Below are positions 3,188 through 63,545 of a stretch of DNA of 64,000 bases, piece by piece. Position 1 is the stretch's first letter; each line of letters begins with the position of its first letter. The stretch is from an uncultured Caldilineaceae bacterium (GTDB lineage: Bacteria; Chloroflexota; Anaerolineae; Caldilineales; Caldilineaceae), in assembly GCA_958295915.1 (NCBI GenBank), contig OY282381.1, positions 1,944,722-2,008,721 on the forward strand. The letters run 5' to 3'. Position numbers and translations under genes: made by a program. The notes beneath the pieces were generated by a model. That model worked only from the letters and a program-made list of their open reading frames with translations. It did no database searches and had not been told where the DNA came from.

Positions 3188-3255
3188 AGTTTTTAGTTGC
3201 CAGTTTTCAGCAACTGCGCCGTTACTGGCAACTAACCACTAAAAACCGCAGTTCA
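3188..3255. repeat. Family C intergenic repeat
   Basis: Composed of permutations of AGTTGCCAG, TTACTGGCAACTA, ACCACTAAAAAC and CTGCAGTT-like blocks around a central inverted repeat (GCCAGT/ACTGGC). Members of this family occupy many of the gene boundaries in the window. Confidence 0.75.
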
Positions 3256-3270: not shown

Positions 3271-3726
3271 GTGAACGCAAACAGATCTTCCCAATATGTC
3301 GCGCCCCACAGTGGCGCGCAAAACAACTATATACAACGCCTCAAAGAAGCTGGCTATAAAATCACACCGGCCCGTCTGGCAGTGCTCCAGGTGATCGAGA
3401 ACCAATTGGGGCACCTCAATCCGGCGCAGGTGTTGCAAGCGGCCAAGGCCCTCAACCCCCAAATCGGTCGGGCTACGGTCTATCGGGCGTTGGAACTTTT
3501 TACTGTTTTGGGTCTCATACGGCCCATCTCCTGCGGTGACGGAGCGCCATTGTATATTCGCGCCGAGGGGGGACATCACCATCTGGTGTGTAATAGTTGC
3601 AACGCCATCATCGACTTTGATGAATGCGTTGCAGAGCCGCTGATGCAACAGTTGGCAGAGCGGAAAGGCTTTCAGGTCCAGAGCCATTTGCTGGAAATCT
3701 ACGGACTTTGCGCCGCCTGTCGGTAG
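3271..3726 (+). CDS. Fur/Zur-family metalloregulator with in-frame family A repeat
   Basis: A 151-residue Fur-family repressor. Residues 20-85 form the winged helix (YKITPARLAVLQVIE, then GRATVYRALELF as recognition helix). The dimerisation domain has HHHLVCNSCN (Zn/Fe ligands at 102-110) and ends with CAACR, giving two CxxC pairs for structural zinc. The following genes (YraQ permease and TIGR03943 protein) are often found with Zur-like regulators, so zinc or another metal is the likely signal; this is inference. GTG at 3271 is the only usable start. Residues 10-19 (VAPHSGAQNN) are the translation of a family A repeat lying between the start codon and the DNA-binding domain, so the normal N-terminus has been extended or replaced by repeat sequence. 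Confidence 0.9.
   Translation: MNANRSSQYVAPHSGAQNNYIQRLKEAGYKITPARLAVLQVIENQLGHLNPAQVLQAAKALNPQIGRATVYRALELFTVLGLIRPISCGDGAPLYIRAEGGHHHLVCNSCNAIIDFDECVAEPLMQQLAERKGFQVQSHLLEIYGLCAACR
3298..3327 (+). repeat. Family A palindromic repeat inside fur-like gene
   Basis: The unit is GTCGCGCCCCACAGTGGCGC plus GCAAAACAAC. Its core GCGCC-CACAGT-GGCGC is an inverted repeat. It is read as VAPHSGAQNN at the N-terminus of the Fur-family protein. Confidence 0.9.
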
Positions 3727-3735
3727 GGGCATAGA

Positions 3736-3845
3736 TCAGTTGCCAGTAGTCAGTTTCCAGTGGCCAGCGCCGTTACTGGCCACTAGCCACGAACCACTAA
3801 AACTGCAGTTGTGATTCCCAAGGCGGGCGCAAGACCCGCCCCTAC
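3736..3845. repeat. Family C repeat followed by family E hairpin
   Basis: The first 75 bases are a family C copy (ATCAGTTGCCAGTAGTCAG through AAAACTGCAGTT). From 3812 a family E element follows: AAGGCGGGCGC-AAG-ACCCGCCCC, a strong GC-rich hairpin ending in CCTAC. It fills the whole gap between the Fur gene and the permease, so transcriptional linkage of the two genes passes through this hairpin. Confidence 0.75.
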
Positions 3846-3856
3846 AAGCGTTCACT

Positions 3857-4972
3857 ATGAGCCAGATATCGCCGTTGACGGAAGCAACCCTGGACAAAAC
3901 AGAGAACTCCGCAGGCGCGCATCGGCTTGGGCGCTGGGGGATTGCGGCGCTTTCCATTCTGGCCCTTGCCGCGATTCTCGTCAGTAGCGTCAACACACCC
4001 CAGGCCCGATTTTTCGTTGCCGAACGCTTCCAGACATTCGTCACAGTGTTCCTTGGCCTCTTCATCGAAGCCGCCCCCTTTCTCTTGGCCGGTTCGATCG
4101 TGTCGGGCATTATCGCCGTCTATGTGAATCAGGAAATGCTGGAACGCTTCATACCCGGTCAGCCGCTGCTCGCAGCCCTGGCCGGCGCGGGATTGGGGTT
4201 CGTTTTCCCTGTCTGCGAGTGTGGAGTCGTACCGGTAACCCGCCGGCTCTATGGCAAGGGGTTGCCTCTGCCGGTGGGCATCGCCTTTCTGCTGGCGGCG
4301 CCGGTGATCAATCCGGTTGTGATCTTCAGTACCTTTGCCGCCTTCGGCTGGGGGCCCGTTCTGTGGGGACGGGTCGGTTTCAGTATTCTGGTCGCATTTG
4401 CGGTGGGCCTGATCTTCCATCTTGCCCGGCCAGAAGAGGTGTTGAATGCGCCTCTGCTCGAGAGAGGCGCGGAACTGCGGCCGCAGACCCCAGCCGCCCG
4501 CAGCAGTGTTTTGCGGGCAACCACAAGGGTTGCCCCTACGGAGCGCGACCATGTCCATCCCAATCCGCGCATCTGGCAGGCTCTCGCTATGGCCGGCGAT
4601 GATTTTCTGGACATGGGGCGCTACCTGATCGCCGGTTCGATCCTGGCCGCAGCCATGCAGACCCTCGTTCCCCAATCTACTTTGCTTGCCATCGGACAGG
4701 GGCCGATCATTTCCGTCTTTGTGTTGATGGCCCTGGGCTTCATCCTATCGGTCTGCTCTACAGTGGATGCGTTTATCGCCCTGGCCTTCAGCAACGCCTT
4801 TACAACCGGCTCGCTGTTTGGATTCCTCGTCTTCGGCCCAATGGTGGATGTCAAAAGCTCGCTGCTGTTTTTGGGGATCTTTCGACGGCGCACAGTCTTC
4901 TATCTGATCTTGCTGCCCTTGGCCCTTGTGGCTGTTATTGCCGTCTTCTGGAATGTGCAGGTGGGAGCATGA
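3857..4972 (+). CDS. YraQ/DUF318-family permease (UPF0718), carrying two repeat-derived insertions
   Basis: A 371-residue membrane protein of the two-repeat permease family (DUF318, also called YcgR or YraQ). Each half carries the family signature: [13 protein letters not shown] at residues 118-130 and [14 protein letters not shown] near 300. About eight to ten hydrophobic segments are visible. Members often sit next to TIGR03943 proteins and are suspected metal or arsenic-compound exporters; the substrate is not established. The central cytoplasmic loop (about 190-240) is unusual: it contains a family B peptide ([11 protein letters not shown], 197-207) and a family E peptide ([13 protein letters not shown], 219-231), both translated repeats. 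The ORF stays open through both. The stop at 4972 is six bases before the earliest start of the next gene, so the two are an operon. Confidence 0.88.
4445..4477 (+). repeat. Family B palindromic repeat (33 nt) inside permease gene
   Basis: AATGCGCCTCTGCTCGAGAG followed by AGGCGCGGAACTG. GCGCCTCT...AGAGGCGC is an eight-base inverted repeat. It is read in frame as [11 protein letters not shown] in the permease central loop. Confidence 0.9.
4513..4539 (+). repeat. Family E hairpin inside permease gene
   Basis: GGGCAACC-ACAA-GGGTTGCCC-CTAC hairpin; the same element is intergenic at 16670. Here it is translated as part of the permease central loop (RATTRVAPT). Confidence 0.8.
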
Positions 4973-4977
4973 GTTGC

Positions 4978-5010
4978 AATGCTCCTCTGCTCGAAAGAGA
5001 TGCGGATGAG
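4978..5010 (+). repeat. Family B repeat at the 5' end of the TIGR03943 gene
   Basis: A degraded 33-nt B unit (AATGCTCCTCTGCTCGAAAG, then AGATGCGGATGAG). It spans the permease/TIGR03943 junction and supplies candidate start codons for the downstream gene at 4979, 5000 and 5006. Confidence 0.75.
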
Positions 5011-5815
5011 TGATATCTTGCGTTTGCCCAGAGTCCAATCCGCGCTCAAGAGAATGCTTCTCTTCGGATTGGGGATCTTTCTCCTCACGCGCATCACATC
5101 CGGCACCCTCGACTTTTACATCAGCCAACGCTTCGCCTGGCTGACGATTCTGGCCATTCTCGGTCTCTTTCTTGTGGGGGGGAGCTACCGCCCAGAGGCA
5201 GCGCATGCGCACGCTGGGGCCGAAGACGACCATCATCATAGCTACTATCTGGGTTGGGCTGGGCTTGCGCTCATCGCGCTCCCCATCATACTGGGCCTTT
5301 TCGTGCCCCCCCGGCCTCTGGGCGTGGCGGCTCTGGACAATCGCGAGATCAGCGTCGGGTCCCTGGATTCCGTACTGCCCGCGGCCGTGCGTTCCGCCCA
5401 AGCCAGACAGACCAGCGAACGCAGCATACTGGATTGGGTGCTCGCCTTCCACGAAGGCCAATGGCCTGCCGAGACAGACACCGCCGATGTGATCGGTTTT
5501 GTTTACCATAGCGACAACGCCGACGAGAACTATGTCGCGCCTCACAGTGGCGCGCAAAATAACATCGTCGCGCCCCACAGTGGCGCGCAAAATAACATCT
5601 TTACCATCACCCGCTTTGTCGTCGGCTGCTGCGCCGCCGACGCCATGGCTGTCGGGCTGACGGTCCAATGGCCGGACGCGCCTGAGTTGGTGGAAGACCA
5701 GTGGGTGCGGGTCGTTGGGCGGTTCACCGTCCCGGTAGGAAATGCCATGCCGGTGCTTGTGGCCGAGCAGGTCAACACTGTGCCAGAACCCAACCAGCCC
5801 TATCTCTATCCCTGA
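4979..5815 (+). CDS. TIGR03943 (DUF1980/YcgQ-like) membrane protein with two in-frame family A repeats
   Basis: The protein has two N-terminal transmembrane pairs (ITSGTLDFYISQRFAWLTIL and LGWAGLALIALPIILGLFVP) separated by a His-rich loop (EDDHHHSY). A soluble domain follows with the family motif VGCCAADAMAVGL. TIGR03943 proteins are regularly encoded beside DUF318 permeases and probably work with them. Between the second membrane region and the CCAADA motif lie two consecutive 33-nt family A units, each read as (I)VAPHSGAQNN, so 22 residues are repeat-derived. The start is uncertain: 4979, 5000 and 5006 are all ATG and all lie in or next to the B repeat; 5006 (MSDILRLPR) gives the most natural N-terminus. 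Confidence 0.85.
   Translation: MLLCSKEMRMSDILRLPRVQSALKRMLLFGLGIFLLTRITSGTLDFYISQRFAWLTILAILGLFLVGGSYRPEAAHAHAGAEDDHHHSYYLGWAGLALIALPIILGLFVPPRPLGVAALDNREISVGSLDSVLPAAVRSAQARQTSERSILDWVLAFHEGQWPAETDTADVIGFVYHSDNADENYVAPHSGAQNNIVAPHSGAQNNIFTITRFVVGCCAADAMAVGLTVQWPDAPELVEDQWVRVVGRFTVPVGNAMPVLVAEQVNTVPEPNQPYLYP
5534..5599 (+). repeat. Two tandem family A repeats (2 x 33 nt) inside TIGR03943 gene
   Basis: Two adjacent units of exactly 33 nt differing at one base (GCCTCACAG versus GCCCCACAG). Both are translated in the same frame, adding 22 residues without breaking the gene. Confidence 0.9.
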
Positions 5816-5883
5816 ACCGCAGTGGTTCGTGGCTAGTTGCCAGTAACGGCACTGGCAACTAGAAACTGACTACTGGCAACTGA
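5816..5883. repeat. Family C intergenic repeat
   Basis: GTGGTTCGTGGCTAGTTGCC, AGTAACGGCACTGGCAACTA and GACTACTGGCAACTG blocks fill the gap between the TIGR03943 and TolB-like genes. Confidence 0.75.
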
Positions 5884-26537: not shown

Positions 26538-28949
26538 ATGATGAAGCGAACGTCGAGGAACTCGTCGAATACTCTTTGGCGCACTCTGAGCGCCTGGTAT
26601 ATGAACAGTGCGTTACTGCATTTCGTCCTCTCCGCTGCGCAAAGCCCTGTTCTGTTCGTCCTGTTCCTCGGCGGCATCCTGACCTACGGCGCTTGGTTCG
26701 CCTGGTACATGCTCTCCCGCTTCGACCTCATCAATCTGATCCGCGATGTGAATGTCGATGACTCCTTCTACTACTTCCAGATAGCCAGAAATCTGGCCGC
26801 GGGGAAGTTCTCGACCTTCGACGGAGGCATCACCCAGACCAACGGCTATCATCCCCTCTGGCTGCTGCTCATCACGCCCTTCTACTGGGTATTCGACCCG
26901 CAGACCGCGCTGTTCGGCATCAAGGCTCTCGAGATTATGCTCATTGCCGCTGGCGTAGCCTTCATCGCGCTGTCCGCTCAGTTGGCGCGCCTGTCCTGGA
27001 TTCTGCTGTTCGCCCTGCTACCGACGCTCTATCAAATCCACTCCTTATTGTCAGGAATGGAAGCGGCCGCCGCGTTGTTTATGCTGGGGCTGTTTTTTAC
27101 GGCTATCTGTCTCTTTGCGCTGCGCCCGGCGCGGTGGACGTGGCCATTGGCTGCCGTCGCCTTTGCCCTGCCCTGGGTGCGCCTGGAGTACGTCGCCATA
27201 TCGCTGGCGGCCACGGCCGCGCTGTGTCTCATCGGCTGGTCATGGCAAGAGAAGCCGCCTGGCGCCTCCTTGAGAGCCGCTCAATTCGCCCCTCCCCGTA
27301 CATTTGTTCCATTACTCGGCGCGTGTGCGGGCATCCTCGTGTACTTCGTTTACAACCAGATCGTCTTTGGCGGCATCGTTCCCGTGAGCGGAGCGACCAA
27401 GCGAATGTGGTCGCAAATCAGTTGGAATCAGGCTGGCGGATACAGCCTCGTGCAGAATTTCCAGGAGATCCGGAAAATCAGCGCTTTCCATAATGACGTT
27501 CTGCTCGTGGCTCTGGGAATCTGCGTTTGCTTGCTGTTGGTCTGGTGGTTCGCCCGCCGCTCCGGGAGCCGGCAGGACTGGCTGCTGCTGGCCTTCCTGA
27601 TATCTCCTTTCAGCCTGGCGGCCGGTCACCTGGCCAAGTTCGCGCAGACTGTTCTCAGCATGAATTCTCGCCAGGGAGGCACTCCCTGGTATTTCACGCC
27701 GGCGTACCTGATGATGGCGCTGGTTGTTCCAATTAGCTGCTATATAGCCGTGCACTTCATCCGCCGTTTCATCGGGCCGAGGTCACCCCGCGCGGCCCAC
27801 ATTGTGAGCCTGATCATTGTCATGGCCGGCGCGGTCTTCCTGTTTGCCAAGGCAGACTTCACCGAGCCGTTCCAGCTAGTTGACCAGATGAGCAGGTCCA
27901 CCGGTCGTAACGTGCTGTCGATGAGTTATGCGGGAACACTGGTTATGAACCGCGTGCTCCCCGAGGACAGCATAGTTGGGGTGTGGGACGCCGGCATCGC
28001 CGGATATTTTTCAGACTTTCCGGTGGTGAACCTGGACGGCCTCGCGAATGATTACGATTTTTTGCGCGAATATAGCGAACCCGAGATGTACGGGGGTGGG
28101 ATATATCACCTGAGAGACTCTTATGCCCAAACCCTGCATCAAAAATTTGGCGCAACCCACTATGCCCAGGTTTGGCCTATCGAAGAGGAAGTATACAACT
28201 TCGACAATACAGTATACAAGGGGGCCGCAGGTACCATAACGGAGATGATGGGTGGTCCAATCATAGCGTTCCAACTCTGGGCAGCGAGTCCGGCGGCGGG
28301 CGGTGAACCTGACCTTGCCGATTGGTTCTGGGAGAGAATGGAGCCTCACTTCGACTACCAGTCGGGTGAAGTAGGCGTTGTGGTTGATGGACGGCTGGCC
28401 CAGACGTTCGCCAAACAGTGCGCGCCGGACGAACTGATCGTGTGGTCCTGGGCCGGCCAGGGGAATGAAACAGTCGTCACGCCCGGAACGAACACGCACA
28501 AGAATCAATCGGGGATATGCGTGAACGATCTTCTGCTGCCCCGCAATGTGGCGCATTCGCTGCGGATTGAGATGAAGACAGCGAGCGATTACCTAGCTGG
28601 GTTGCAGGAGAACAGTCAACCGGCAATCCGCTCCAACTTCGACGTGTATCATGGCGAAAACAGACTCATCTACGTAAAGGAGCGGTGCGGACAGGATGAC
28701 GTTGAGGCAATGTTCTTCCTCCACCTGGACCCGGCTGAAATAGATGACCTCCCCGGCTATCGCAGGCAATACGGTTTTGACAACCTTGATTTTAACCTTG
28801 ACCGGTATGGCGAGAGAATCGGCGGGATATGCTTGGCGGTTGTCCCTCTCCCGGGATACGACATCATCGGGATCAGGACCGGCCAGTACATACGTGTGGA
28901 AGGCGGTTACGATAACATCTGGCAAGACGATTTTCTTCTTGTCGAGTAG
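26538..28949 (+). CDS. GT-C type membrane glycosyltransferase-like protein, copy 1 of 3
   Basis: An 803-residue integral membrane protein. The N-terminal half has about ten transmembrane helices. The first extramembrane loop carries VDDSFYYFQIARNLAAG (about 73-89), with the acidic pair typical of GT-C enzymes such as protein mannosyltransferases and ArnT, followed by ITQTNGYHPLW, also conserved in this group. The C-terminal half (about 480-803) is extracytoplasmic, beginning at VLPEDSIVGVWDAGIAGYFSDFPVVNLDGL. These enzymes use polyprenyl-phosphate sugars; donor and acceptor are unknown here. Copies 2 and 3 follow in tandem. Copy 1 is the most divergent in its second half. It begins the polysaccharide island. 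Confidence 0.78.
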   Translation: MMKRTSRNSSNTLWRTLSAWYMNSALLHFVLSAAQSPVLFVLFLGGILTYGAWFAWYMLSRFDLINLIRDVNVDDSFYYFQIARNLAAGKFSTFDGGITQTNGYHPLWLLLITPFYWVFDPQTALFGIKALEIMLIAAGVAFIALSAQLARLSWILLFALLPTLYQIHSLLSGMEAAAALFMLGLFFTAICLFALRPARWTWPLAAVAFALPWVRLEYVAISLAATAALCLIGWSWQEKPPGASLRAAQFAPPRTFVPLLGACAGILVYFVYNQIVFGGIVPVSGATKRMWSQISWNQAGGYSLVQNFQEIRKISAFHNDVLLVALGICVCLLLVWWFARRSGSRQDWLLLAFLISPFSLAAGHLAKFAQTVLSMNSRQGGTPWYFTPAYLMMALVVPISCYIAVHFIRRFIGPRSPRAAHIVSLIIVMAGAVFLFAKADFTEPFQLVDQMSRSTGRNVLSMSYAGTLVMNRVLPEDSIVGVWDAGIAGYFSDFPVVNLDGLANDYDFLREYSEPEMYGGGIYHLRDSYAQTLHQKFGATHYAQVWPIEEEVYNFDNTVYKGAAGTITEMMGGPIIAFQLWAASPAAGGEPDLADWFWERMEPHFDYQSGEVGVVVDGRLAQTFAKQCAPDELIVWSWAGQGNETVVTPGTNTHKNQSGICVNDLLLPRNVAHSLRIEMKTASDYLAGLQENSQPAIRSNFDVYHGENRLIYVKERCGQDDVEAMFFLHLDPAEIDDLPGYRRQYGFDNLDFNLDRYGERIGGICLAVVPLPGYDIIGIRTGQYIRVEGGYDNIWQDDFLLVE

Positions 28950-29095
28950 TCCAGGGGCTGGCGCTGGCAAGGCGCCAAGAAGGTTTTCAGTTTTTAGTTT
29001 CGAGTAACTGCAGTTCACTGACCACTGGAAACTGACAACTAAAAACTGCAGTTGGGAGCATTGGTGTATTGTAGCCAATTTCACATGTCTATGTC
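28950..29095. repeat. Duplicated spacer between GT-C copies (contains family C)
   Basis: The spacer is nearly identical base for base to 31466-31611. It holds GGGGCTGGCGCTGGCAAGGC with a small hairpin, a family C element (28985-29053), and the segment TTGGTGTATTGTAGCCAATT before the next ATG. Near-identity of the spacers shows that gene plus spacer were duplicated as a unit, recently. Confidence 0.85.
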
Positions 29096-31465
29096 ATGAT
29101 GGAGCGTAAACTATTATCGAATACTCTTTGGCGCACTCTGAGCGCCTGGTATATGAACAGTGCGTTACGGCATTTCGTCCTCTCCGCTGCGCAAAGCCCT
29201 GTTCCGTTCGTCCTGTTCCTCGGCGGCATCCTGACCTACGGCGCTTGGTTCGCCTGGTACACGCTCGCCAATTTCGACCTCATCAACCTGATCCGCGACG
29301 TGAACAGCGATGACTCCTTCTACTACTTCCAGATAGCCAGAAATCTGGCCGCGGGGAAGTTCTCGACCTTCGACGGAGGCATCACCCAGACCAACGGCTA
29401 TCATCCCCTCTGGCTGCTGCTCATCACGCCCTTCTACTGGGTATTCGACCCGCAGGCCGCGCTGTTCGGGATCAAGGCTTTCGAGATTCTGCTCACAGCG
29501 GGTGGTGTCGCGCTGGTTGTTCTGGCCACTGGCATATCACGCCTGCCCTGGATTCTCCTGTTTGCCGCTCTCCCACGGCTCTATCGATATGGGCACTTTC
29601 AAGTAGGAGTGGAAAGCGCCATCGCGCTGTTTATGTTGGGGCTGCTCTTCCTCGCCCTCAGCCTCTTCGCGCGGAACCCAGCGCGGTGGACGTGGCCACT
29701 GGCTGTCATTGCCTTTGCCCTGCCCTATGCGCGCCTGGAGTACGTCGCCATATCACTGACGGCAACCGCGGCGCTGTATCTCATCGGTTGGTCATGGCAA
29801 GAGAAACCGCCCGGCGCCTCCTTGAAAGCCGCTGAATCTGTAGCTCCCTCCTCCAGAACATTTGTTCCGTTGCTCGGCGCGTGCGCGGGCATCCTCGTGT
29901 ACTTCGTCTACAACCGGCTCGTCTTTGGTGGCTTCGTGCCCGTGAGCGCGGCGTCCAAGCAGGCGTGGTCGCAGTCCCGTTGGGAGCGGGAAGGCGGATA
30001 CAGCCTCGCGCAGAACTTCCAGGATGTCCTGCAAATTCACGTGTTCAATGACACACTGCTGGTCGCTCTCGCAATCTGTGGCTACCTCCTGCTGGTCTGG
30101 TGGTCTGCCCGCCGCTCCCGCAGCCGGGAGGATTGGCTGCTCCTGATCTTTCTGGTGGGCGCGTTCAGCCTGGCGGCGGGTCATATAGTGAAGTTCGCGC
30201 AGACCGTTCTCACTGTGCATCCCTACTGGGGGGATTATGGGCATTATTTCGTTCCGGCGTATCTGATGAAGGAGCTGTTTGTTCCCATTAGCTGTTACGT
30301 CACCGTTCACTTCATTCGCCGTTTTGTTGGACCGAAGTCGCGCCGCGCGGCCAATATTCTGAGCCTGGGGATTGTCATAGCTGGCGCGATCTTCTTCCTG
30401 TTCAGACCGGCAGGAATTACATCATTCCTGGATGTTGACCGTGCGAGCGAGTCTTCTCGTTGGGAATGGGAGATAACCTCTTACATGGGCACGCAGGTAA
30501 TGAACCGCGTGCTTCCCGAAGACAGCATAGTCGGGGCGTGGGACGCTGGCGTCATTGGATACTTTTCGGACTTTCCCGTTGTGAATCTGGACGGCCTCGT
30601 GAATTCCTATGACTATATGCGCGCGCGGCAAGAAGGGAATGCAGAATCGTATTATCAAAAGTATGGAATTACGCATTTCGCCAATATCAGGCGTACCGAG
30701 CGGAACTTCGATAATACGCTTTTTGAAGGTGCTTCGTTAGAGACAGAGTATGAGTTCAAACTCTGGTCCGCTGAGCCGCTGGAGGCGTCATCGGGCGAGT
30801 CTGACAACGCCGCCTGGTTCTGGGAGAGAATAGAGCCCCATTTTGACTACAAGTTGGATGAAGTCGGGGTTCTCGTTGATGACAGGTTGGCGCAGGTTTT
30901 CGTGAGAGATTGTGAGCCGGAAGAACTGCGGGAAAAACTCTTTGTGGTTTCCTGGCGTACCGAAGGGAGCGAAACAGTCGCCAGCGCCCGGTATCCATGG
31001 AAGAACGCGAGGGAAAATCACCTGAGGTTCTGCGTGGATGCGTTTGCACTGCCTGACGACGCGGTTCATCCAGTTCGGATTGAGACAATGTCAGCGCGTG
31101 ATTACGTCGAGCGGCTCTCCAAAGACGGCCAGCCGATAATCCGCTCCAATTGGAATGTGTATATCAACGGGAACAATCTCATCTACGTAAAGGAGCTGTG
31201 CGAACAGGATGACGTTGAGGTAAAGTTCTTCCTCCACCTGGACCCGGTTGAAGTGAATGACCTCCCCAGCCATCGCAGGCAATACGGTGTTGACAACCTT
31301 GATTTTAACTTTGACTGGTATGGCGGCGAGAGAATCGGCGGGATATGCTTGGTGGTTGTCCCTCTCCCGGGATACGACATCATCGGGATCAGGACCGGCC
31401 AGTACATACGTGTAGAAGGCGGTTACGATAACATCTGGGAGGCAGAAAATCGTCTTGTCGAGTAG
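29096..31465 (+). CDS. GT-C type membrane glycosyltransferase-like protein, copy 2 of 3
   Basis: A 789-residue paralogue of the preceding gene, same topology. The DDSFYYF and ITQTNGYHPLW motifs are unchanged. The helices after FDPQAALFGIKA differ clearly from copies 1 and 3 (FEILLTAGGVALVVLATGIS), whereas the rest of the membrane part and nearly all of the extracytoplasmic half match copy 3 (for example YKLDEVGVLVDDRLAQVFVRD). The variable segments probably affect acceptor or donor choice. The start MMERKLLSNTLWRTLSAWYM is well aligned with copy 1. Confidence 0.78.
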   Translation: MMERKLLSNTLWRTLSAWYMNSALRHFVLSAAQSPVPFVLFLGGILTYGAWFAWYTLANFDLINLIRDVNSDDSFYYFQIARNLAAGKFSTFDGGITQTNGYHPLWLLLITPFYWVFDPQAALFGIKAFEILLTAGGVALVVLATGISRLPWILLFAALPRLYRYGHFQVGVESAIALFMLGLLFLALSLFARNPARWTWPLAVIAFALPYARLEYVAISLTATAALYLIGWSWQEKPPGASLKAAESVAPSSRTFVPLLGACAGILVYFVYNRLVFGGFVPVSAASKQAWSQSRWEREGGYSLAQNFQDVLQIHVFNDTLLVALAICGYLLLVWWSARRSRSREDWLLLIFLVGAFSLAAGHIVKFAQTVLTVHPYWGDYGHYFVPAYLMKELFVPISCYVTVHFIRRFVGPKSRRAANILSLGIVIAGAIFFLFRPAGITSFLDVDRASESSRWEWEITSYMGTQVMNRVLPEDSIVGAWDAGVIGYFSDFPVVNLDGLVNSYDYMRARQEGNAESYYQKYGITHFANIRRTERNFDNTLFEGASLETEYEFKLWSAEPLEASSGESDNAAWFWERIEPHFDYKLDEVGVLVDDRLAQVFVRDCEPEELREKLFVVSWRTEGSETVASARYPWKNARENHLRFCVDAFALPDDAVHPVRIETMSARDYVERLSKDGQPIIRSNWNVYINGNNLIYVKELCEQDDVEVKFFLHLDPVEVNDLPSHRRQYGVDNLDFNFDWYGGERIGGICLVVVPLPGYDIIGIRTGQYIRVEGGYDNIWEAENRLVE

Positions 31466-31611
31466 TCCAGGGGCTGGCGCTGGCAAGGCGCCAAGAAGGT
31501 TTCCAGTTTTTAGTTTCGAGTAACTGCAGTTCACTGACCACTGGAAACTGACAACTAAAAACTGCAGTTGGGAGCATTGGTGTATTGTAGCCAATTTCAC
31601 ATGTCTATGTC
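31466..31611. repeat. Second copy of the duplicated GT-C spacer
   Basis: Near-identical to 28950-29095, including the family C element (31501-31569). After it, copy 3 has small changes that shift the frame, so its usable start moves to 31637. Confidence 0.85.
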
Positions 31612-31636
31612 ATGATGGAGCGAACATCGAGTAACT

Positions 31637-34021
31637 ATGTCGAATGCTCTTTGGCGCACTATGAGCGCTTGGTATATGAAGTATATGAACAGTGCGTTAC
31701 GGCATTTCGTCCTCTCCGCTGCGCAAAGCCCTGTTCTGTTCGTCCTGTTCCTCGGTGGCATCCTGACCTACGGCGCTTGGTTCGCCTGGTACATGCTCGC
31801 CAATTTCGACCTCATCAATCTGATCCGCGACGTGAACGGCGATGACTCCTTCTACTACTTCCAGATAGCCAGAAATCTGGCCGCGGGGAAGTTCTCGACC
31901 TTCGACGGAGGCATCACCCAGACCAACGGCTATCATCCCCTCTGGCTGCTGCTCATCACGCCCTTCTACTGGGTATTCGACCCGCAGGCCGCGCTGTTCG
32001 GCATCAAGGCTCTCGAGATTATGCTCATTGCCGCTGGCGTAGCCTTCATCGCGCTGTCCGCTCAGTTGGCGCGCCTGTCCTGGATTCTGCTGTTCGCCCT
32101 GCTACCGACGCTCTATCAAATCCGCTCCTTATGGGGAGGAATGGAAGCGGCCGCCGCGTTGTTTATGCTGGGGCTGTTTTTTACGGCTATCTGTCTCTTT
32201 GCGCTGCGTCCGGCGCGGTGGACGTGGCCACTGGCTGTCATTGCCTTTGCCCTGCCCTATGCGCGCCTGGAGTACGTCGCCATATCACTGACGGCAACCG
32301 CGGCGCTGTATCTCATCGGTCGGTCATGGCAAGAGAAACCGTCCGGCGCCTCCTTGAAAGCCGCTGAATCTGTATCTCCCTCCTCCAGAACATTTGTTCC
32401 GTTGCTCGGCGCGTGCGCGGGCATCCTCGTGTACTTCGTCTACAACCGGCTCGTCTTTGGTGGCTTCGTGCCCGTGAGCGCGGCGTCCAAGCAGGCGTGG
32501 TCGCAGGCCCGCTGGGAGTGGAAAGGCGGTAGGTACAGCCTCGCGCAGAACTTCCAGGATGTCCTGCAAATTCACGCGTTCAATGACGAACTGCTGATCG
32601 CTCTCGCGATCTGCGGCTACCTCCTGCTGGTCTGGTGGTCTGCCCGCCGCTCCCGCAGCCGGGAGGATTGGCTGCTCCTGATCTTTCTGGTGGGCGCGTT
32701 CAGCCTGGCGGCGGGTCATATAGCGAAGTTCGCGCAGACCGTTCTCACTGTGCATCCCTACTGGGGGAGTTATTCGTATTATTTCGTTCCGGCGCATCTG
32801 ATGAAGGAGCTGTTTGTTCCCATTAGCTGTTACGTCACCGTTCACTTCATTCGCCGTTTTGTTGGACCGAAGTCGCGCCGCGCGGCCAATATTCTGAGCC
32901 TGGGGATTGTCATAGCTGGCGCGATCTTCTTTCTGTTCAGACCGGCAGGAATTACACCATTCTCACCATTCCTGTATGTTGACCGTGTGAACGAGTCTTC
33001 TCATCGGGAATGGGAGATAACCTCTTACATGGGCACGCAGGTAATGAACCACGTGCTTCCCGAAGACAGCATAGTCGGGGCGTGGGACGCTGGCGTCATT
33101 GGATACTTTTCGGACTTTCCCGTTGTGAATCTGGACGGCCTCGTGAATTCCTATGACTATATGCGCGCGCGGCAAGAAGGGAATGAAGAATCGTATTATC
33201 GAAAGTATGGAATTACGCATTTCGCCATTGTCAGAAGTACCGAGTTGAACTTCGATAATGCGCTTTTTGAAGGTGTTTCGTTTCCCAGATCTGAAGAGAA
33301 AGAGTATGAGTTCAAACTCTGGTCCGCTGAGCCGCTGGAGGCGTCATCGGGCGAGTCTGACAACGCCGCCTGGTTCTGGGAGAGAATAGAGCCCCATTTT
33401 GACTACAAGTTGGATGAAGTCGGGGTTCTCGTTGATGACAGGTTGGCGCAGGTTTTCGTGAGAGATTGTGAGCCGGAAGAACTGCTGGAGAAACTCTTTG
33501 TGGTTTCCTGGCGTACCGAAGGGAGCGAAACAGTCGCCAGCGCCCGGTATCCATGGAAGAACGCGAGGGAAAATCACCTGGGGTTCTGCGTGGATGCGTT
33601 TGCACTGCCTGACGACGCGGTTCATCCAGTTCGGATTGAGACAATGTCAGCGCGTGATTACGTCGAGCGGCTCTCCGAAGACGGCCAGCCGATAATCCGC
33701 TCCAATTGGAATGTGTATATCAACGGGAACAATCTCATCTACGTAAAGGATCTGTGCGAACAGGATGACGTTGAGGCACTGTTCTTCCTCCACCTGGACC
33801 CGGTTGAAGTGAATGACCTCCCCGGCTATCGCAGGCAATACGGTTTTGACAACCTTGATTTTAACTTTGACCGGTATGGCGGCGAGAGAATCGGCGGGAT
33901 ATGCTTGGCGGTTGTCCCTCTCCCGGGATACGACATCATCGGGATCAGGACCGGCCAGTACATACGTGTGGAAGGCGGTTACGATAACATCTGGCAGGCA
34001 GAAAATCGTCTTGTCGAGTAG
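31637..34021 (+). CDS. GT-C type membrane glycosyltransferase-like protein, copy 3 of 3 (mosaic)
   Basis: A 794-residue paralogue. Residues from about 115 to 205 (LEIMLIAAGVAFIALSAQLA, MEAAAALFMLGLFFTAICLF) match copy 1 almost exactly, while from RWTWPLAVIAFALPYARLEY onward the protein matches copy 2. This is what gene conversion or recombination between neighbours produces. Compared with the other two the initial codons are out of frame (the ATGATG at 31612 leads into a different frame), so translation should start at ATG 31637; a short duplication (TATATGAAG/TATATGAAC) lies close by. Acidic motif and HPLW motif are intact. Confidence 0.78.
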   Translation: MSNALWRTMSAWYMKYMNSALRHFVLSAAQSPVLFVLFLGGILTYGAWFAWYMLANFDLINLIRDVNGDDSFYYFQIARNLAAGKFSTFDGGITQTNGYHPLWLLLITPFYWVFDPQAALFGIKALEIMLIAAGVAFIALSAQLARLSWILLFALLPTLYQIRSLWGGMEAAAALFMLGLFFTAICLFALRPARWTWPLAVIAFALPYARLEYVAISLTATAALYLIGRSWQEKPSGASLKAAESVSPSSRTFVPLLGACAGILVYFVYNRLVFGGFVPVSAASKQAWSQARWEWKGGRYSLAQNFQDVLQIHAFNDELLIALAICGYLLLVWWSARRSRSREDWLLLIFLVGAFSLAAGHIAKFAQTVLTVHPYWGSYSYYFVPAHLMKELFVPISCYVTVHFIRRFVGPKSRRAANILSLGIVIAGAIFFLFRPAGITPFSPFLYVDRVNESSHREWEITSYMGTQVMNHVLPEDSIVGAWDAGVIGYFSDFPVVNLDGLVNSYDYMRARQEGNEESYYRKYGITHFAIVRSTELNFDNALFEGVSFPRSEEKEYEFKLWSAEPLEASSGESDNAAWFWERIEPHFDYKLDEVGVLVDDRLAQVFVRDCEPEELLEKLFVVSWRTEGSETVASARYPWKNARENHLGFCVDAFALPDDAVHPVRIETMSARDYVERLSEDGQPIIRSNWNVYINGNNLIYVKDLCEQDDVEALFFLHLDPVEVNDLPGYRRQYGFDNLDFNFDRYGGERIGGICLAVVPLPGYDIIGIRTGQYIRVEGGYDNIWQAENRLVE

Positions 34022-34202
34022 TCCAGGGACTGGTCTTGGGGTCCAAACGGCCCAGTTAGCCTGACCGCCCACTCCTGCCCACTGACTACTAAGGTGGCTC
34101 AGCGCGCCATTGCGTCAGGCCAATGAATCGTGCTAGAATTTTCCCAGATAACTGTAGTGCGCGCAGTGCGGAGTTCGCTATGTCAGAGCGAGAGGAGGGA
34201 GC
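34022..34202. other. Gap before Uma2 gene with weak promoter
   Basis: A family C fragment (CCCACTGACTACTAAGG) is followed by TTGCGT-18-TAGAAT (34112-34141), a weak sigma-70-type promoter candidate for the Uma2 gene. GAGAGGAGGGAGC before 34203 is a strong ribosome binding site. Confidence 0.35.
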
Positions 34203-35300
34203 ATGGAACCCACAGCGCGGTTGCGCGACGCGCCCCAAGAGCGGACAACCCAGGCCAACGGTCGCCCATCGCAGGCTGCCGCTCTGCCCGGCAGATGGGA
34301 GACAGAGTCAGCCGACAGACCGATCAACCCCCTTGCGCCCGACGATGGTCGCTATGTCACCAAGGCAGAGTACTGGGCCAGGTGGTATGAAAACCCGTAC
34401 CTTGACGTCAGCTACGAATGGAACAATGGCATTCTGGAGGCCAAACCCTTGTCCACGCCCCCACAACTCGACCTCTATGGCTGGTTTCTCACGCTCTTGC
34501 TGCACTATGAGCAGAGCCACCCCATTGCCAGGCTGCTGTATCTGGAAACTGGTTTCAATCTGACCATGCCGGATCCGGCAGAGCTGTCTGGGATGCGGGA
34601 GGCGGTGCGCAAGCCGGACATCGGCGTGATTCTGTATACCAATCCGGTACTCTGGAAGCTCACTGAACGGGCGTATAGAGGGATCTGCGATATGTGCGTG
34701 GAGTCGGTGTCTGATTCGACACTGGCGGAGGCGCGTCGGGACACGGAGGAGAAGAAGAGGGATTATGCTCTGGCTGGGGTGCGGGAGTACTTCATTCTTG
34801 ATCCGGACGATCGCTATATGCGCTTCTATCGTCTTGGCGCGGCTGGGCGCTACGCAGAGATACAGTCTGACGTCGAGGGGGTGATCCGTTCTGAGGTGTT
34901 GCCTGGGTTTCAGTTTCGGCGGCGCGATCTGCTGCGGTTGCCGGAGATAAAGGATCTGGCTCTGGATGAGGTGTATGCGGGGTATGTCCTACCCGAATAT
35001 CAGGCCGCTGTCGCCGCTAGCCAGAAGGCGGAGGAACAGGCCACGCTAGAGGGGCAGCGGGCCGATACAGAAACGCAGCGGGCCGATACAGAAACGCAGC
35101 GGGCCGATACAGAAACGCAGCGGGCCGATACAGAAACGCAGCGGGCCGATACAGAAGCGCAGCGAGCCGATACAGAAACGCAGCGGGCCGATACAGAAGC
35201 GCAGCGAGCCGATACGGAAGCGGCTGCTCGCCGAGTAGCGGAAGAACGGGCGCAAGCGCTGGAAGCCGAATTGGCCCGACTGCGCCAACAACGCTCCTGA
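34203..35300 (+). CDS. Uma2-family (DUF820) nuclease-fold protein with C-terminal heptad-repeat tail
   Basis: A 365-residue protein. Residues 55-235 form the Uma2 domain, a PD-(D/E)xK-like fold: VRKPDIGVIL (Asp), CVESVSDST (Glu), and EKKRDYALAGVREYFILDP. Uma2 proteins are greatly expanded in Cyanobacteria and Chloroflexota and probably cut or bind nucleic acid, but no member has a settled role. After LLRLPEIKDLALDEVYAGYV the tail (280-365) becomes a series of QRADTET heptads followed by a charged helix (RRVAEERAQALEAELARLRQ). The heptads come from a perfect 21-nt tandem repeat and should form a long alpha-helix or coiled coil. GGAGGGAGC precedes ATG 34203. Confidence 0.85.
   Translation: MEPTARLRDAPQERTTQANGRPSQAAALPGRWETESADRPINPLAPDDGRYVTKAEYWARWYENPYLDVSYEWNNGILEAKPLSTPPQLDLYGWFLTLLLHYEQSHPIARLLYLETGFNLTMPDPAELSGMREAVRKPDIGVILYTNPVLWKLTERAYRGICDMCVESVSDSTLAEARRDTEEKKRDYALAGVREYFILDPDDRYMRFYRLGAAGRYAEIQSDVEGVIRSEVLPGFQFRRRDLLRLPEIKDLALDEVYAGYVLPEYQAAVAASQKAEEQATLEGQRADTETQRADTETQRADTETQRADTETQRADTEAQRADTETQRADTEAQRADTEAAARRVAEERAQALEAELARLRQQRS
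35055..35222 (+). repeat. 21-nt tandem repeat, eight units, coding QRADTET heptads
   Basis: Eight consecutive 21-nt units of type CAGCGGGCCGATACAGAAAC-G, with single-base variants (GGG/GAG, AAACG/AAGCG). The unit length is a multiple of three and equals one coiled-coil heptad, so copy-number change lengthens the helix without frameshift. Confidence 0.95.
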
Positions 35301-61997: not shown

Positions 61998-63545
61998 ATG
62001 GAACTACGGGTGCAGCAGGGAAATATCACCGAAGCGGATGCCGATCTGATCGTCGTCAATCTGTTCGCCGGTGTGACGACGCCCGGCGGCGCGACGGGCG
62101 CCGTTGACCAGGCGCTGGGTGGCGGCATTAGCCAGCTCATTGCCCAAGGGGATTTCAGCGGCAAAGCGGAGACGACAGCGCTGCTCTATGCGTCTCTTTC
62201 TAGCAGAGGCGCATTGAACACGTCCCAGAGCCGGCTGGCCGCGCCCCGGGTGCTGCTCGTCGGCCTGGGCAGACCTGATCGGTTCGGAATTGCGCAGATC
62301 CGGCGGGCAGCAGCGGTGGCCGCCCAAGCCGCGGCCAAACTGGACGGTGTCAAGACTATGGCGACGATCATCCACGGCGCCGGCATTGCTGGCCATGACA
62401 CCGCCGTTGCCGCGCAGGAGGTGGCGCTGGGAACTCTGTTAGCCAGCTATCGGCCCAAACAGTACCGGCGCAATAACCCCGACGACCAGTTGACAAGCTG
62501 CACAGTTGTGGAGTTCAGCGCCGAAAAACTGGCCGACGCCCAACGCGGCCTGTCCAGGGGCGAGGCCATCGGCCGGGCTGTCTGCAGGGCCCGCGATCTG
62601 GTGAACGAGCCGCCGAATCTCCTGACGCCCCTGGAGATGGCCGCCCGTGCCCAGTCCATGGCCGCGGATGTGGGCCTGAAAAGCGCAGTTCTGAACGAGG
62701 CGGCCATGCAGGAAGTGGGGATGGGCTTTCTGCTGGCGGTGAGCAGAGGCAGCGCCAATGAGGCCCAGCTTGTCATTCTGGAACACGCGCCCGCCGGGCA
62801 CGCCGAGGAAGCGCCGCTGGTTTTCGTCGGCAAAGGGATTACATTCGATACCGGCGGCATCAGCCTGAAACGTCCGGCAGATATGTGGGCGATGAAGGAC
62901 GATATGGGCGGCGCGGCCGCGGTGATCGGCGCGCTGGAGGCCATCGGCCAGCTTGATCTCCCCCAACGGGTGATCGGCGTGGCGCCCTGTGTGGAAAATA
63001 TGCCCGACGGTACATCCTACCGGCCCGGCGATATCGTCACCGGCATGACAGGCAAAACCGCGGAGATCATCAGCACGGATGCGGAGGGACGGCTGGTTCT
63101 CGCTGACGCGCTGGCGTACGTGGCCCGTTTCAATCCCATCGCGGTTGTCGATCTGGCAACTCTTACCGGCGCGATCGGCACGGCGTTGGGGCTGCATGTG
63201 CGCGCGGGCCTGTTCAGCAACGATACCGCCCTGCAGGAAAAGCTGATGACGGCCGCAGATCACAGCGGCGAGCGGCTATGGCCGTTCCCGATGGATGAGG
63301 AATATGAGAAGCCGATTCAAAGCGACATGGCAGAAGTGAAGAACAGCAGCGGGCGCGCCGGCGGCCTCAGCAGCAGCGCCAAGTTTATCGAACACTTCAC
63401 CGAAGGCTACCCTTGGGCCCACCTGGACATCGCCAATATGGTGCTGGCCGACAGCCGAATCAACCCGGAGACACCGAAAGGCGCCACCGGATACGGCGTG
63501 CGGCTGCTAGTGGAGTTGGCAGAGCGCTATGCAGTACATTCGTAA
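61998..63545 (+). CDS. pepA: Leucyl aminopeptidase (M17)
   Basis: A 515-residue cytosol aminopeptidase with AAAGG before ATG 61998. The catalytic C-terminal domain has all metal and active-site motifs: FVGKGITFDTGGISLKRP (Lys, Asp), MKDDMGGAAAVIGALEA (Asp, Lys), and ISTDAEGRLVLADAL (Asp-Ala-Glu-Gly-Arg). The N-terminal domain carries an insert at residues 64-74 (YASLSSRGALN), a translated family B repeat in a loop between two strands. Ends with NPETPKGATGYGVRLLVELA as is typical. It hydrolyses N-terminal residues of peptides in the cytoplasm. Confidence 0.95.
   Translation: MELRVQQGNITEADADLIVVNLFAGVTTPGGATGAVDQALGGGISQLIAQGDFSGKAETTALLYASLSSRGALNTSQSRLAAPRVLLVGLGRPDRFGIAQIRRAAAVAAQAAAKLDGVKTMATIIHGAGIAGHDTAVAAQEVALGTLLASYRPKQYRRNNPDDQLTSCTVVEFSAEKLADAQRGLSRGEAIGRAVCRARDLVNEPPNLLTPLEMAARAQSMAADVGLKSAVLNEAAMQEVGMGFLLAVSRGSANEAQLVILEHAPAGHAEEAPLVFVGKGITFDTGGISLKRPADMWAMKDDMGGAAAVIGALEAIGQLDLPQRVIGVAPCVENMPDGTSYRPGDIVTGMTGKTAEIISTDAEGRLVLADALAYVARFNPIAVVDLATLTGAIGTALGLHVRAGLFSNDTALQEKLMTAADHSGERLWPFPMDEEYEKPIQSDMAEVKNSSGRAGGLSSSAKFIEHFTEGYPWAHLDIANMVLADSRINPETPKGATGYGVRLLVELAERYAVHS
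62187..62219 (+). repeat. Family B repeat (33 nt) inside pepA
   Basis: TATGCGTCTCTTTCTAGCAG then AGGCGCATTGAAC. The right half is intact, the left arm is degraded, but length and frame are kept. Confidence 0.85.

Follow-up and report, generated by a model that had tools for sequence, protein, structure and literature searches.

Organization of the operon and its host genome

The window analyzed in this study is a stretch of 64,000 nucleotides corresponding to positions 1,944,722-2,008,721 of the single-contig 5.06-Mb genome of an uncultured Caldilineaceae bacterium. According to the permease described below, its closest relatives are MAGs named Caldilineaceae bacterium, some of which presumably originate from sponges. 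Three genes of one operon lie on the forward strand: a Fur-family regulator gene at 3271-3726 (151 aa, GTG start; PF01475, E=8.5e-27), an ArsP_1-type permease gene with orthologues in congeners at 3857-4972 (371 aa; PF03773, E=3.6e-66), and a TIGR03943/DUF1980 gene at 5006-5815, with ATG 5006 as its probable start (TIGR03943, 129.8 bits for a cut-off of 88.8; PF21537 and PF09323). The permease scored far under the cut-off of the nearest NCBIfam equivalog, SO_0444 Cu/Zn efflux. Based on the protein families, the operon may have a role related to metals, perhaps zinc.

With regard to fur, no close orthologue was found in any of the 16 congeners, in which the best matches reached 26-33 % identity. 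The more distant genome G033, unlike these congeners, carries a fur gene near its permease. For the permease and DUF1980 genes, comparison with the two nearest relatives (G012 and G010) gave a dN/dS of approximately 0.11-0.19, a measure in which most of the history covered may predate the insertions described below.

Two families of short hairpin elements

The operon contains copies of two palindromic elements, A and B. Element A (GTCGCGCCCYACAGTGGCGCGCAAWACAAC), whose length of 30 nt was judged by conservation, has six pairs in its stem, seven bases in its loop and a tail whose last bases are CAAC (GTTG on the opposite strand). Element B (AATGCGCCTCTGCTCGAAAGAGGCGCATTGAAC) measures 33 nt; its hairpin comprises eleven pairs and its tail closes with SAAC, which reads GTTC or GTTG (GTTS) on the opposite strand. 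Both elements consist of a GC-rich stem-loop from which an unpaired tail extends at one side; the hairpins fold with z-scores of -2.6 to -5.8, and a pyrimidine run 3' of the insertion point is preferred by A as well as by B. At one stem pair of A, a change from C-G to T-A was observed in 7 of 82 distinct copies. All six frames of the A consensus are open, as are five of the six frames of the B consensus.

Using a 24-nt core and up to 2 mismatches, 352 copies of A were found in this genome and none with the reversed control; B is present in 151 copies, again with no control match. In contrast, A was absent from all 60 genomes of relatives, including 16 of the same genus, and B was represented in the congeners by a single copy with three mismatches, in 1 of 16. 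A search of 84,980 species genomes, among which the window's own genome may be missing, gave no exact copy of A, and viral_contigs contained no exact copy of either element. No target duplication was detected for A as a family, the best offset combination being weak (7 matches for 1.5 expected, among hundreds of tests). Examined piece by piece, the elements showed no clear tie to GC skew that would point to a replication-strand bias.

Between 1,806 and 1,822 kb of the genome (G000; L082, L083), a row of paralogous genes carries 1-4 tandem 29-nt A units each, at the same upstream place, and constitutes a natural series of array expansion. A B-like stretch occurs at the same place in a type ISP restriction-modification protein (L098:9940-13167) and in three similar called proteins (L234, L256 and L268); this stretch may predate their duplication or may be a chance resemblance.

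Insertions in the operon

An exact 30-nt consensus copy of A lies in fur at 3298-3327 (forward strand), as the preliminary description of this DNA had stated. It codes for YVAPHSGAQNN, at about residues 9-19 of the N-terminus. GTG 3271 is the sole in-frame start before A and, as no ATG, GTG or TTG occurs between A and the Fur domain, A would necessarily be translated if Fur is. The peptide is absent from the Fur of the distant G033.

In the permease, B occupies positions 4445-4477 (forward strand) and adds 33 nt, or 11 residues, in frame to the linker between the two membrane halves. These residues are missing from all 20 orthologue rows, 19 of which are informative, as the row of G016b stops short, and the same gap is seen at the DNA level against G012 and G010. 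The permease also contains an exact match to a GTAG-tagged hairpin, element E, at 4515-4539 (forward strand), so that the earlier assignment of one B and one E to this protein was correct. E is located in a His-rich linker of variable length among orthologues, where it may represent an insertion or a replacement and is not datable.

Two A units with a period of 33 nt are found in the DUF1980 gene at 5534-5563 and 5567-5596 (forward strand), resulting in a gain of 66 nt or 22 residues that is absent from 19 of 19 orthologues. In the predicted structures, which have low mean confidence for both proteins (66 for DUF1980 and 67 for the permease), the A inserts fall in a loop at 173-193 (pLDDT<50) between strands 159-167 and 197-206, and the permease linker that holds B, residues 195-234, likewise has pLDDT<50. 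Such low-confidence loop sites are predicted positions of the kind expected for tolerated additions.

A decayed B copy with 6 mismatches in 29 nt is situated at 4978-5010 (forward strand), at the junction of the permease stop and the DUF1980 start. In the two nearest relatives, the permease TGA overlaps the DUF1980 ATG at this place. The junction copy adds approximately 37 nt, which is not a multiple of 3, and has ATGAGT on both flanks. If translation starts at ATG 5006, it lies outside the coding frames and need not be present in the protein. Thus, of the repeats previously attributed to the TIGR03943 protein, the two A units were found, while the B repeat proposed for its start belongs to the gene junction. 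The earlier claim that peptides had been inserted without a frameshift holds for the permease and DUF1980 proteins, since the proposed comparison with related genomes revealed insert-free sites in all DUF1980 orthologues and all informative permease orthologues; for Fur, which has no close orthologue, it is only likely.

A third dispersed repeat of approximately 63 nt, rich in CAGT/CCACT, is present at window positions 3736-3798 and 5821-5883 and brackets the permease-DUF1980 pair. These two copies are in inverted orientation and 94 % complementary. A further copy at 3191-3246 precedes fur, and many members of this family occur in the window and across the genome.

Insertions elsewhere in the genome

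All five single A insertions that could be aligned with relatives were exactly 30 nt, or ten residues, long. For the gain in an RpoD-like sigma factor, no residues are present at the site in 14 of 16 orthologues, and the remaining two (L209 and L211) have three. The corresponding sites are empty in 14 of 14 orthologues of a hydantoinase, in 14 of 14 orthologues for each of two gains in a DUF3500 protein, and in 11 of 11 orthologues of a 372-aa protein. One further gene showed a 15-residue gain over its single aligned relative. The hydantoinase has a second A copy, located in a variable linker for which no clean gap was found. B is also present on the reverse strand at 62190-62224, within an M17 leucyl aminopeptidase gene (61998-63545; PF00883 and PF02789). 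This copy corresponds to a 33-nt gain relative to G012 and G010; 14 of 16 congeners have 8-11 other residues at the site, and this case could be a replacement instead of an insertion.

The coding context of the elements was assessed in a 1.65-Mb sample (33 % of the genome, partly picked for density), with genes called by our own hexamer model with arbitrary cut-offs, so that the number of intragenic A copies depends on the threshold. At a tolerance of up to 3 mismatches, the sample contained 327 copies of A (control 0). Of these, 168 lie outside called genes, even though 85 % of the sampled sequence is coding, 123 are in called genes but do not have a coding score on each side, and 36 have one on each side, which makes the clearly intragenic copies a minority. 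Among 144 sampled copies of B, 21 had coding sequence on both sides. These 36 A and 21 B copies are palindromic stem-loops within the coding flanks of unrelated families, the hosts of A including the RpoD-like sigma factor, a GTPase, restriction enzymes and the hydantoinase. The 36 strictly coding A copies use all six frames (5, 8 and 12 copies in sense; 4, 6 and 1 in antisense). Frame use is uneven, the commonest frame being VAPHSGAQ (12 of 36), and some selection on the peptide of this frame is possible. Outside the strictly coding set, tandem A units are spaced by 15-43 nt in any phase; the sole strictly coding pair has a spacing of 33.

GTAG hairpins and other repeats

Unlike A and B, the E family was found in all 17 genomes of the genus, with stem variants that retain pairing, such as GGGCACCC...GGGTGCCC in G001. 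Another GTAG-type hairpin is located on the reverse strand at 3822-3845, close upstream of the permease start, and its reverse complement begins with GTAG. The congener G011 (L272-L291) is filled with different, abundant repeats of its own, which have GGGCCTTCGGCCC and GGGGCTGCGCCCC hairpins and include a GTAG hairpin with a different stem. This suggests that the set of hairpins is particular to each species. Given the near-absence of A and B from relatives, the presence of E in the entire genus and the GTAG hairpin of G011, we conclude that A and B are specific to this lineage, whereas hairpins of the GTAG kind are of long standing in the genus.

The window itself also contains a tandem array of the 21-nt repeat GCAGCGGGCCGATACAGAAAC at 35012-35242 and, at 26597-34033, three tandem copies of a unit of approximately 2.5 kb, parts of which are 64-99 % alike. 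The sample of the window's own genome also included 68 copies of a long direct repeat with the unit CAGATTGGAGAGACTGCCC..., which resembles a CRISPR array in appearance.

Origin and spread of the elements

When tandem units are counted once and the decayed B copy is not included, the operon comprises 4 element events in 2545 bp. In a simulation that kept the number of events per piece and randomized their positions, the densest 2.5 kb of an 848-kb sample, partly chosen for density, held a mean of 5.1 events, and at least 4 in 99.8 % of 500 trials. Several other loci match or exceed the operon in element count. An exceptional cluster, and with it the earlier statement that the insertions in 2.5 kb were far above chance, is therefore not supported. 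Nor is the lack of frameshifts remarkable, as had been suggested: it reflects what selection has left over, aided by element lengths of 30 and 33 nt, which are divisible by three. The operon is an ordinary example from a genome that carries hundreds of copies.

Direct observation covers the number of copies, their confinement to this genome, the exact lengths, the reading in six frames and the absence from orthologues. We consider it highly probable that A and B are lineage-specific miniature palindromic elements, similar to REP or RPE sequences, which have multiplied in this Caldilineaceae genome. A copy landing in a gene would add 10 or 11 residues and leave the gene unbroken, given that the lengths are divisible by three and that those A insertions that could be aligned are clean and bring no extra target bases. 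Selection would purge harmful landings, and the survivors would be found in gaps, N-termini, linkers and loops, as with the putative landings in this operon: the N-terminal tail of Fur, the permease linker, the loop in the beta-domain of DUF1980 and the stop/start junction. The inserts are probably neutral, and their spread would be transposition-like, driven by a putative mobiliser. The ATGAGT repeat around the decayed B at 4978 does not fit insertion free of target-site duplication.

Other explanations of the elements can be weighed against this one. Local recombination or slippage, rather than a transposition-like process, could have spread the copies, as tandem arrays are frequent and consist of similar units, with 2.8 differences per 30 nt, and as copies separated by 100-2000 nt differ at 5.7 positions compared with 6.6 after shuffling (2 of 2000 shuffles as low). 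This closer likeness of nearby copies suggests either local spread or duplicated segments, of which the region at 1.806-1.822 Mb is an example that may account for part of it. However, slippage accounts for arrays and not for dispersal, and single copies occur at many unrelated sites with clean 30-nt borders and no common flanks, which makes an exclusively local origin unlikely. Alternatively, A and B could be RNA hairpins with a regulatory role, maintained because they influence transcription or mRNA, with the intragenic copies as by-products. Many copies are indeed intergenic or situated shortly before a start, and one B copy parts the overlapping stop and start of the permease and DUF1980. 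Nevertheless, the elements show no preferred orientation with respect to the direction of transcription (15 of 35 in unidirectional gaps), the density in convergent gaps is just slightly elevated (0.70 compared with 0.44-0.47 per kb, from 6 events), and neither element within the window matched Rfam at gathering scores; we regard a regulatory origin as a rather remote prospect.

Recruitment of the repeats to a metal operon as a functional peptide module, for instance a metal-binding or targeting tag, would be in line with the VAPHSGAQNN frame, of which Fur has one copy and the DUF1980 protein two, and which is also the commonest genome-wide. This proposal was rejected as very improbable because all six frames are in use: the same DNA yields unrelated peptides, so that no conserved peptide, and hence no peptide function, is implied. 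Moreover, the hosts of A are unrelated proteins, about half of the copies lie outside called genes, the modelled inserts are disordered, and orthologues in the genus manage without the insert. Least credible of all, by a small step, is the view of the operon as a group of pseudogenes filled with repeats. Several foreign elements are indeed present within and between the genes, and another dispersed repeat lies on the flanks, but the open frames, the strong family scores and the dN/dS values of the permease and DUF1980 genes indicate that these genes are under constraint and that the operon is not decaying. Decay, which had been named as the observation that would undermine the preliminary description, was thus not what the sequences pointed to.

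With regard to the putative mobiliser of these lineage-specific elements, the Y1_Tnp domain (PF01797) was absent from 17 of 17 genus genomes, in a search whose controls were positive in 5 of 14, and a RAYT was rejected as the mobiliser on this basis. Inspection by eye of the 34 genes bracketed by A or B revealed no transposase-like gene. The tag, the hairpin plan and the 3' pyrimidine run of A and B recall the GTAG REPs moved by RAYTs. Tentatively, A and B could represent a third tag class (GTTG/GTTC, beside GTAG and CGTC), moved by a non-Y1 activity whose insertions are clean, have lengths divisible by three and fall preferentially where a pyrimidine run follows. If so, such elements can live in genes, with ten-residue peptides placed even in the RpoD-like sigma factor of one lineage.

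Relation to known palindromic repeats

In 2002, Ogata reportedly described the Rickettsia palindromic elements as in-frame palindromes in unrelated proteins. As presented in PMC3733652, these are short, species-restricted palindromes found in frame in unrelated proteins, with no dedicated transposase. A and B resemble them and the CGTC REPs in being in frame in many unrelated proteins, restricted to a species and devoid of a dedicated transposase. They lack the CGTC tag in their consensus. They further differ from the Rickettsia elements in being read in all six frames, in the exact 30-nt gains of A and in their occurrence in another phylum. The same source proposes that intragenic inserts may occupy flexible linkers or loops, those that inactivate a protein having plausibly been removed, a reading that matches the one reached here, and it mentions that GTAG REPs occur inside genes as well (PMC3733652).

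Element E and the hairpin at 3822-3845 belong to the type of the GTAG REPs associated with RAYTs (TnpA_REP), with which A and B share the short tag and the hairpin. E carries CTAC/GTAG, whereas GTAG is not present beside the stem of A or B, whose tag is GTTG or GTTC, and no protein with PF01797 was found in the 17 genomes of the genus. Like MITEs, A and B are small, non-autonomous and multiplied; unlike them, they have no recognised terminal inverted repeats of a known transposon, and target-site duplication, a trait of MITEs, is absent for A and limited to a possible 6-nt repeat at one decayed B. Palindromic DNA in coding sequence also occurs in Mollicutes and Nematomorpha, but those cases are repeat proteins or mitochondrial inverted repeats, unlike dispersed 30-nt elements (PMC2996958, PMC6649704).

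By definition, REPs are mostly extragenic, as stated in PMC12306157, and a survey table therein covers three Chloroflexota genomes, so that REPs in this phylum are already in print. A literature search, which covered subscription papers thinly, retrieved no prior report of such elements in Caldilineaceae. Selfish palindromes in proteins of Rickettsia and intragenic REPs in several other bacteria are established. What is new is the A/B family itself, its restriction to one lineage within the sampled genus, the 30- and 33-nt quanta, the use of six frames and the different tag. This Chloroflexota family of one species, missing from 16 congeners, combines exact insertion lengths with empty sites in many relatives, and for this reason offers a good system for studying the one-step gain of residues in protein loops and the movement of palindromes without a RAYT.
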